Assembly: GCA_012798065.1 (NCBI GenBank)
Contig: JAAZNW010000001.1
Location: 1-64,000, forward strand
Source: Chloroflexota bacterium
Lineage (GTDB): Bacteria; Chloroflexota; Anaerolineae; Anaerolineales; Anaerolineaceae
Direction: 5' to 3'
DNA: 64,000 nt
Shown: piece after piece, positions 50,225-60,924 of the stretch
Layout: each line of letters opens with the position of its first letter
Numbering within the stretch: position 1 is the first letter of the stretch
Notes under the pieces: generated by a model
What the model was told of the DNA's origin: nothing
What the model saw: the letters and a program-made list of their open reading frames with translations, nothing else
Databases searched by the model: none
Translations under genes and position numbers: made by a program

Positions 50225-51076
50225 ATGCTTTTTTGGAGAGAAGCATTGAATATTGATGTTGCCACAACGGTAAAAGTGATCCTGGTTTTGCTGGGGATTG
50301 CAGCCATCGTTAGCCTGACAATGGCAGTAAAATCCATCAAAGCAGGTTACAGGCTGCTTTTTTTCCAGAAGCGTCAATTACTGGTCGCTCACGGCTGGCG
50401 CCTGGTGCTGCTCGCGCTTGGGTTGCTGCTCACAGGGCTGGTATTAATCCGCTTTGGAGAACCGATGGTCTACCGCTATTTTCCTCCTTCTCCTACCATC
50501 ACCCAAACGCCTACCGTGACCATCACACCTACGATCACCAATACGCCTTCGATGACCTATACCCCGACCATCACCTTGACTTTATCTCAAACTTACACAC
50601 CTTCATTGCCTGAATTCATCCAGGCGACCATTCAAACCCCCGTCGGACCGGACGCGAACGCGATTTTCAGCCCATTGAGTTTTTCTGACACCATAAAAGA
50701 CGGTGTGGTGACGACTTCTTACAGTGAGTTTGAATTACCCGTGGGGACGTTATTTGGTGGTTTTTCTTATGACCGTATGGCTATTGGAGCGCAGTGGACG
50801 GCTTTATGGTTCTATGGAGATGAGTTGATCTGTTCAGAAACCAAGGCGTGGAATTATGCTCCCGGAGGTTATGGTTATACGGATTGTTCACGCCCTGTGG
50901 ACGCCTGGCGTCCGGGGATCTACGAGGTGCGAATTTTTGTCGGACAGACCTGGAAACAGTCAGGCACCTTCAAGATCCTCGGGGAAGAACCCTTGGTTGA
51001 AAAAATTCCAACGAGCATGGGAGCACAAGCACCTGTTGAAAGCGCAGTAACCGCAACCCCGCCGTCCACTCCTTGA
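50225..51076 (+). CDS. Membrane protein with Thr/Pro-rich linker and extracellular domain
   Basis: Two TM segments then TITQTPTVTITPTITNTPS linker; TATAAT at 50221. Confidence 0.6.
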   Translation: MLFWREALNIDVATTVKVILVLLGIAAIVSLTMAVKSIKAGYRLLFFQKRQLLVAHGWRLVLLALGLLLTGLVLIRFGEPMVYRYFPPSPTITQTPTVTITPTITNTPSMTYTPTITLTLSQTYTPSLPEFIQATIQTPVGPDANAIFSPLSFSDTIKDGVVTTSYSEFELPVGTLFGGFSYDRMAIGAQWTALWFYGDELICSETKAWNYAPGGYGYTDCSRPVDAWRPGIYEVRIFVGQTWKQSGTFKILGEEPLVEKIPTSMGAQAPVESAVTATPPSTP

Positions 51077-54619: not shown

Positions 54620-54625
54620 AACGAT

Positions 54626-54796
54626 ACCCTGCTGTGTTCGTGATGATGCGACACCGGTTTTGAGCCAACACTTCTAAAAGGGATCCTCCTCTCAACAGGG
54701 TAACGCGATAGGCTTCGGCCAAGGCGGATCTCTGTGGCAGGATCCACCTGCTTCGGCAGGTTCAAAACTACGCAGCACACGGCATGGTGGGGTCTT
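54626..54796 (+). ncRNA. ssrS: 6S RNA
   Basis: Closing stem ACCcTGCTGTGT/ACACGGCAtGGT; 11-bp stem GGTTTTGAGCC/GGTTCAAAACT; central bubble with 3'-strand hairpin CCTGCttcgGCAGG; apical GGATCCT/AGGATCC; GGGGTCTTTTTTT end. Confidence 0.85.
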
Positions 54797-55013
54797 TTTT
54801 TCTCAACAAACCCGGATCAATTTGCATAGAAAAACCACCGCTGGTGAAGCGCTGCCTTGGAAGGATGAGCGTGAGTATAAGCAGGCGGTGTGGTTCCATT
54901 GAGCAACCGAGGCTAAATGTAAACACCTGGGCTGTGTTTGAAATCAAACCGAGATCGTTTTCCGAGATGGAGGTCGATGAGCGCCCACGTTCAAATCAAA
55001 ATTATTAAAATCG

Positions 55014-59745: not shown

Positions 59746-59803
59746 ACCGGGAACTATGTACCTCTCTGTTTTCTTCATTCTGTCTTTATTCTGCTCTGTT
59801 TGC

Positions 59804-59832
59804 TTGCCTCTGGGTGACGAGTGCATTATAAT
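59804..59832 (+). promoter_or_regulatory. tRNA-Thr promoter
   Basis: TTGCCT (59804-59809), 17-nt spacer, TATAAT (59827-59832). Confidence 0.7.
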
Positions 59833-59849
59833 TTCGAGGTTCGAAGCAA

Positions 59850-59922
59850 GCCACCGTAGCTCAGCTGGCAGAGCAGGCGTTTCGTAAACGTCAGGTCAAG
59901 GGTTCGAATCCCTTCGGTGGCT
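59850..59922 (+). tRNA. tRNA-Thr(CGT)
   Basis: GCCACCG/CGGTGGC acceptor, GGCGT-TTCGTAA-ACGTC anticodon arm, AAGGG-TTCGAAT-CCCTT T-arm; no encoded CCA. Confidence 0.95.
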
Positions 59923-59946
59923 CAATCATTTCCGGCAAAAAAAGCT

Positions 59947-60241
59947 CAGGTCAAGGGTTTACTGGCAGGAACATCCAGCACTCGCACAAGGCGCTCGCAA
60001 ATCCCTTCGGTGGTTCAACCAATTCCGGCAAAAAAGCTCAGGTCAAGGGTTTACTGGCAGGAACATCCAGCACTCGCACAAGGCGCTCGCAAATCCCTTC
60101 GGTGGCTCAACCAATTCCGGCAAAGAACCTCAGGTCAAGGGTTTACTGGCAGGAACATCCAGCACTCGCATAGGGCGCTTGCAAATCCTTTCGGTGGCTC
60201 AACCAATTCCGGCAAAGAAGCCCAGGTCAAGGGTTTACTGG
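59947..60241 (+). repeat. Three 92-bp tandem repeats plus partial fourth, derived from the tRNA-Thr 3' half and its flank
   Basis: Units start at 59947, 60039, 60131, 60223 (exact 92-nt spacing); each begins caggtcaagggtt and contains aaatccctt(cctttt-type variants)cggtggctcaaccaattccggcaaa. Confidence 0.95.
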
Positions 60242-60318
60242 ATGCGGTTGACATGACGCAATACACTCTCCAAGGCTGTTGTTTTTAAAAGGTCACTTTG
60301 ATAAGGTAAAATGAAGAA

Positions 60319-60924
60319 ATGGACATGGAGACAAATAAGAAAAAGTCAGGCTGTGGGTGCGGTCTGGCGATGCTCATTTTGCTTGTTGTGGTGGTACTGA
60401 CCTCCCCTTTGATACTACGGGGGATTGGCGCCCTGCTTATTTACGCTGATCCGCTCAAAGAGGCGGATAGCGTGGTAGCACTGAGCGGCGATACCGGCGA
60501 CCGGGTGGCAGAGGCAGCCCGGTTATATCAAAAACAATATGCCAGTTATCTCTTCATAACCTATACTGACGAACCAGCGCGGGATGCCCTGATACGGGCT
60601 GCGGTGATAGAAGGAATTCCGGCTGACCGCGTTATTGTGACGGAAATGCAGGTATCCAACACGGTAGATGAAGCACGCGCCATCAAAGCGCTGGCAAAGG
60701 AACGCGCGCAGGATTCACTGATCATCATCACTGATCCCTTTCATACGCTGCGAACGCGCATCATCTTCCGCAACGTATTTCGCGGAAGCGGGATAGATGT
60801 TCAGGTGCGGCCGGTTGGCGGGCATTGGTACCGTTCCACCACCTGGTGGCGCACTGCTGAGGGTCGGCGTTACACATTGGAAGAATACCTGAAAATTTTG
60901 CTGTACTTTTTTGGCAGGTATTAA
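60319..60924 (+). CDS. YdcF/ElyC family (DUF218) membrane protein
   Basis: ADSVVALSGDTGDRVAEAARLY, NTVDEARAI, ITDPFHTLRTRIIF motifs. Confidence 0.88.
   Translation: MDMETNKKKSGCGCGLAMLILLVVVVLTSPLILRGIGALLIYADPLKEADSVVALSGDTGDRVAEAARLYQKQYASYLFITYTDEPARDALIRAAVIEGIPADRVIVTEMQVSNTVDEARAIKALAKERAQDSLIIITDPFHTLRTRIIFRNVFRGSGIDVQVRPVGGHWYRSTTWWRTAEGRRYTLEEYLKILLYFFGRY

Follow-up and report, generated by a model that had tools for sequence, protein, structure and literature searches.

The window analysed here is a 64,000-nucleotide stretch (contig JAAZNW010000001.1) from a Chloroflexota bacterium of the family Anaerolineaceae. A tRNA-Thr(CGT) gene was located on the forward strand at positions 59850-59923 by ARAGORN (Rfam RF00005, 65.8 bits at 59850-59922). 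The gene is preceded by a predicted promoter-like site (59804-59832, forward strand; TTGCCT and TATAAT separated by 17 nt, 10 of 12 consensus matches), which ends 18 bp upstream of it, and is directly followed by a tandem array (59907-60241), to which TRF assigned a period of 92 bp, 3.6 copies, 94% matches and a score of 584. Genes encoding PolIV, DUF218, uridine kinase and VTT/DedA proteins are found nearby, and a second predicted promoter-like site (60284-60312, forward strand, 9 of 12 matches), which lies between the array and the DUF218 gene, delimits the array region downstream. According to the list of open reading frames and to Pfam, no recognisable gene lies within the array, which also lacks an integrase or element. 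The window additionally contains a 6S RNA gene (54623-54797, forward strand; RF00013, 73.5 bits) and a degenerate 18/36-bp short tandem repeat (CCTACCATCACCAATACG; 50492-50575), possibly a coding low-complexity stretch.

An earlier note on this DNA, made from the sequence alone, had remarked that no clear terminator separates the tRNA from the array, and a terminator scan extending to 60360 indeed found none. This result and the promoter-like site back the view, expressed in the same note, that array and tRNA may be co-transcribed.

Anatomy of the repeat units

Direct-repeat analysis gave start-to-start distances of 92 and 92 bp among units, or 55, 92, 92 and 92 bp once the tRNA itself is counted. 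Each unit consists of the 3' portion of tRNA-Thr(CGT), from the variable loop to the discriminator, the trailer of the tRNA, and a 38-nt insert that separates T55 from C56 in the T-loop; the order is AGGTCAAGGGTT, insert (TACTGGCAGGAACATCCAGCACTCGCACAAGGCGCTCG, 38 nt), CAAATCCCTTCGGTGGCTCA and trailer. When the region is split at GGTCAAGGGTT, the tRNA copy measures 55 nt (59894-59948) and features the T-arm, the acceptor 3' strand and the trailer with the T-loop uninterrupted. It is followed on the same strand by three units of 92 nt: unit 1 (59949-60040, insert 59960-59997), in which the acceptor strand reads CGGTGGT, unit 2 (60041-60132, insert 60052-60089) and unit 3 (60133-60224, insert 60144-60181), in which the T-stem reads CCTTT. 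A truncated fourth unit (60225-60241) ends within the insert. TRF and direct repeats agree with this partition. The segment AATCCCTTCGGTGGCTCAA is identical in unit 2 and in tRNA-Thr(CGT); units 1 and 3 each depart from it at a single position.

ARAGORN, Rfam, TRF and direct-repeat analysis thus bear out the earlier description of a 92-bp array derived from tRNA-Thr and located directly downstream of it, down to the 55-nt tRNA copy, the variant acceptor and T-stem strands of copies 1 and 3 and the truncated copy 4. The T-loop, however, is not replaced, as had been thought, but interrupted: its 3' part resumes after the insert as CAAAT, which differs from CGAAT by one change. The net gain of 37 nt was figured correctly, and is now accounted for by 38 inserted nucleotides minus one A lost from a run in the trailer. 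The array is found once in this genome (hereafter G000), and chance is excluded as its source.

Arrays in related genomes and at other tRNA genes

A comparable array follows the same tRNA-Thr(CGT) gene in Anaerolineaceae bacterium bin45, a metagenome-assembled genome of the same genus (G004; contig JAJUGU010000002.1), where the units are 87 and 86 bp long (2.5 copies). An assembly artefact, a possibility raised in the earlier note, is therefore unlikely, as the tRNA of this independent genome is the source of a homologous array. A Thr array is also present in G009, the assembly of which breaks within the array, and a decayed one in G005, approximately 11 kb of inserted DNA away from its tRNA. 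No array is found after tRNA-Thr(CGT) in G006, G015, G020 and all other genera checked, and the Thr array is accordingly dispensable. A search of 147 family genomes yielded no further Thr array, and a pattern scan of GTDB returned G004 only.

The break point is identical in all Thr arrays. The tRNA-derived parts of the units follow the tRNA of their own genome: G004 units show no differences from the G004 tRNA and four from the G000 tRNA, and G000 units show two to three differences from their own tRNA and six to seven from the others. The trailer inside the units likewise matches the trailer of each species. Common descent of the Thr arrays, combined with concerted evolution by unequal recombination, would be the simplest account of this pattern. 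The insert is identical between G000 and G004 at 32 of 38 positions (84%), in contrast to 69.5% for the adjacent PolIV gene, while the trailer (48%) falls inside its shuffled null, i.e. at chance level. Because the insert is more conserved than its coding neighbour, this comparison suggests that the insert is under selection, although recent exchange between species could also produce it.

The earlier note knew of no family with this structure. The architecture is nonetheless that of the tRNA-linked repeats (TLRs) of Escherichia coli, a class named in strain K-12, where 22 copies occur at ten loci and are recognised by a stretch of 18-19 bp that exactly matches the 3' end of the RNA gene preceding them (PMC8144298). 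Such repeats have been known since 1978, with the 178-bp repeats of tyrT and rttR among them (Egan and Landy 1978 and Rudd 1999, cited in PMC8144298). The tRNA-linked ones have no known function, whereas there is evidence for CsrA and Hfq binding by the three rRNA-linked ones (PMC8144298), for which the paper describing them proposes a processing role of the 3' repeats. The window array lies directly downstream of a tRNA gene, shares with it AATCCCTTCGGTGGCTCAA, exact in unit 2, and contributes 3.6 copies at one of four loci (Thr, Pro, Gly and Glu), within the one to five copies per locus, at several loci, of the E. coli class. The likeness extends to the head-to-tail arrangement, to the (near-)identity of the unit 3' end with the tRNA from the T-loop on, to the splitting of the T-arm by a hairpin-bearing insert and to the position of some repeats behind a terminator. 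In E. coli MG1655, for instance, tyrT/tyrV units end in AATCCTTCCCCCACCACCA, the 3' end of tRNA-Tyr, and their T-arm is split by such an insert; the same scan found repeats of this kind at Arg-ACG, Lys and proK. At lysV, lysQ and proK, an apparent terminator of the tRNA operon precedes the TLRs, an arrangement also described for rRNA-linked TLRs. The two sets differ in that no similarity of insert sequence was seen: inserts here seem to have no relation to the E. coli core (AACGTTGC..GCAACGGCCCGAAGGGCGAG), vary between tRNA genes and include two recurrent pentaloop hairpins. In addition, the match to the tRNA usually starts again at C56, a few nucleotides ahead of where it does so in E. coli, and the phyla are different. 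Membership of the Rfam RtT RNA family was rejected, as RF00391 gave no match up to E=10 in 59750-60350, whereas the E. coli tyrT control gave four matches of 133-138 bits.

Other known systems share only part of this anatomy. The RrA, RrB and RrF small RNAs of E. coli rRNA operons also repeat the 3' end of the upstream gene behind a stable RNA gene, and are reported to be transcribed by terminator read-through and to bind CsrA and Hfq; they follow 5S genes, whereas the window array follows a tRNA. CsrA titration as for RrB was rejected, since CsrA (PF02599) has no match in G000 (91% complete); 14 of 16 congeneric genomes likewise give none. The constant-size tandem repeats of bacteria described by Subirana and Messeguer (PMC8161180) measure 20-21 or 52 nt, are described without mention of tRNA and are not the same.

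Further repeats of this type were surveyed in six genomes of one order and at chosen E. coli loci, by searching the 600 bp downstream of each tRNA gene, other tRNA genes being excluded, for copies of its last 20 nt with at most 4 mismatches. In the six genomes, TLR-type repeats lie behind 23 of 230 tRNA genes, about a tenth, including many isoacceptors, although the threshold of 4 mismatches in 20 lets in doubtful cases (G015 Ala(CGC), perhaps Ser(GCT)); shuffled queries gave 1 hit in 870. They follow 4 of 42 tRNA genes in G000 (Thr, Pro-CGG, Gly-GCC and Glu-TTC), 6/43 in G004, 8/43 in G015, 3/32 in G058 and 2/32 in G071, which belongs to a different family of the order; none of the 38 tRNA genes of G031 has such a repeat. 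Up to six matching copies were counted per array (tRNA-Cys, G058). Because the genomes are mostly fragmented metagenome assemblies and arrays break contigs, these copy counts are lower bounds, and some arrays have escaped the survey. Many arrays lie at contig ends (e.g. G015:C27/C35, G011:C146/C165 and G009:C26/C38), and TLR arrays probably break short-read assemblies and are hence under-counted. Two identical tRNA-Pro(CGG) genes are present in G000 (C15 and C121), one of which lies at a contig end and is followed by a 55-bp TLR array, while the other has none; they may represent either two genes or an assembly fork.

In nearly all arrays, the T-arm is split in or beside the T-loop by an insert that usually bears a hairpin. 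In unit 3 of the G015 tRNA-Cys array, which includes the anticodon arm, hairpin inserts occupy both the anticodon loop (ACCCCCTTACAGGGGGTTATA) and the T-loop. Terminator-like hairpins are found in the trailer of several units (Gly, Pro-GGG, Gln and Ser), and also, in this genome or its relatives, between tRNA and repeat at Gly-GCC, Pro-GGG, Gln, Ser and Glu, so that transcription of the repeats at those loci would need read-through.

Hairpins carried by the inserts

The commonest hairpin, a stem closed on the loop AUYGA, is shared by inserts of the Pro, Cys, Asn and Gln arrays. Across 16 genomes of the genus there are 82 matches to the corresponding pattern, CCCATYGAGGG, compared with approximately 21 to its reversed form. 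Inspection of the context of 20 sites revealed more arrays, at Arg-CCT, Pro-TGG, Lys-CTT, Gly-TCC and Met; others among the 20 lie in tRNA-Thr(GGT) itself or in unrelated or coding-looking sequence. In 15 distinct AUYGA hairpins, 88% of cells are paired, and two-sided changes are seen in three of five pairs. The covariation score of 0.404 was reached by none of 500 shuffles, and slid controls did not exceed 0.156; the set was partly gathered with a pattern that fixes the three inner pairs, and the two outer pairs, which are unselected, carry most of the two-sided changes. A second recurrent hairpin has the pentaloop UUACA and occurs at unrelated tRNAs; the two types are found in anticodon and T-loops. 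A 72-bp tandem pair with the hairpin CCCATCGAGGG is present in G013 (C10, approximately 54.75-54.86 kb), with no tRNA or Rfam match in the 1 kb examined.

The Thr insert of the window has no AUYGA loop, but its plan is related. In the Thr arrays of G004 and G005, the insert has hairpins of 7 bp, TCCTGGC-AAGAACA-GCCAGGA and TACTGGC-AAGAACA-GCCAGTA, respectively, which differ by one compensatory pair. By alignment, the hairpin of the window insert, CTGG-CAGGAACAT-CCAG (59962-59978 in unit 1, forward strand; also 60054-60070 and 60146-60162), is an eroded version of these hairpins with two mismatches. Shuffled sequences fold as well as the window unit (z about +1 to +1.4), and the fold of the whole tRNA plus array (z=+1.5) lends no support to an RNA structure. 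Among 110 T-stem pairs in units, 85 are Watson-Crick, 7 G-U, 3 A-C and 15 other, a count that leans weakly towards kept pairing, since both strands descend from a tRNA stem that is itself paired. The insert palindrome was also considered as a genome-wide operator and rejected: outside arrays, its matches are scattered and mostly carry one mismatch.

Origin and possible role of the arrays

The account that we favour, and regard as somewhat better than even, is that the window array is a TLR locus probably co-transcribed with its tRNA, homogenised by recombination and kept under structural selection in its inserts. Transcription would start at the tRNA promoter and run on through the array as an extended 3' trailer, in which the hairpin-bearing 38-nt insert at T55/C56 would stop each unit from forming a normal T-arm. 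Each tRNA-like 3' end might serve as a processing signal, releasing small hairpin RNAs. Unequal recombination among the units and with the tRNA gene would keep the tRNA-derived parts current and alter copy number, and selection on the insert would maintain its structure. Against this account count the window unit, which folds at the level of shuffled sequence and has two stem mismatches, the terminator-like hairpins at other loci and the dispensability of the array.

Some of these observations are as expected if a tRNA 3' end and its trailer had been duplicated by chance, interrupted by an insertion and multiplied through slippage or unequal crossing-over, with no function at all. Copy number varies (3.6, 2.5, broken contigs and decayed remains), several congeners have no array and the fold energy in the window is unremarkable. 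Such a neutral origin is nevertheless rather unlikely in our judgement, as the insert is better conserved than PolIV while the trailer stands at chance level, arrays with related hairpins recur at many tRNAs and the stem of the AUYGA hairpins covaries. Plain replication slippage, raised in the earlier note, similarly leaves unexplained an insert kept across species when the trailer is not. Protein coding, an idea put forward for tpr in the E. coli tyrT repeats, is very improbable: one frame is open across the window array (59917-60288, 123 codons), but the 92-bp unit shifts the frame at each copy, the G004 array has stops in all three forward frames, Pfam gives no match in the array and the open frame is not conserved.

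The T-loop is a classical crossover region of integrases, and the units, broken within it, could be att-like sites or remnants of crossovers, the insert being what an element left behind. One unit of the G015 tRNA-Cys array is also interrupted in the anticodon loop, and tRNA-Thr(CGT) does serve as an integration site in relatives. In G005 (C61, approximately 4-15 kb), an element of about 11 kb with a large serine recombinase and RecT sits at the 3' end of the gene, between the tRNA and the decayed array, and in G014 (C128) a tyrosine integrase gene lies directly downstream of it. The repeated core of the G005 element, however, is CCCTTCGGTGGCTCTTTGT, which comprises the tRNA 3' end and trailer rather than the T-loop. 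Att-site duplications also place 3' tRNA segments downstream of an intact tRNA, but they flank an element, whereas the window units follow one another head to tail every 92 bp, contain a conserved insert and bound neither an element nor a recombinase gene. The array has no match in phages and no credible one in plasmids (E=0.9 over 27 bp). Across the arrays, the two half-sites are separated by inserts of 18-38 nt, and the insert stems covary. Integration at this tRNA in relatives lends weak support to the repeatedly used attachment site envisaged in the earlier note; no array unit carries an integrase, and we consider a recombination by-product improbable. We attach similarly little probability to a small, REP-like mobile palindrome that jumps into loops of tRNA-derived DNA and is then amplified together with the tRNA end. 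The recurrence of AUYGA and UUACA hairpins at unrelated tRNAs, in both anticodon and T-loops, the excess of CCCATYGAGGG over its reversed control and the G013 array without a tRNA speak for it; several pattern matches lie inside tRNA-Thr(GGT) or coding-looking sequence, the window Thr insert has no such motif and no transposase was linked to the palindrome.

A broader proposal, advanced only tentatively, is that selection maintains, throughout the order, a class of small RNAs derived from tRNAs, or of hairpin elements parasitising tRNA 3' ends. Their conserved AUYGA and UUACA pentaloops would be set in the T-loop, and in a single case in the anticodon loop, of the partial tRNA copies that follow about one tRNA gene in ten. 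The E. coli TLRs might then be a branch of this class or a convergent case.

What is new here is the presence of TLRs in Anaerolineaceae (Chloroflexota), although earlier reports outside enterobacteria may have been missed. TLR arrays may explain some of the contig breaks in these genomes. The Anaerolineaceae TLRs argue against CsrA titration as a general role. The occurrence of the same architecture in a distant phylum opens up comparisons that were out of reach with E. coli alone, and distinguishes the constrained parts, namely the structure of the insert and the tRNA 3' end, from the unconstrained trailer.
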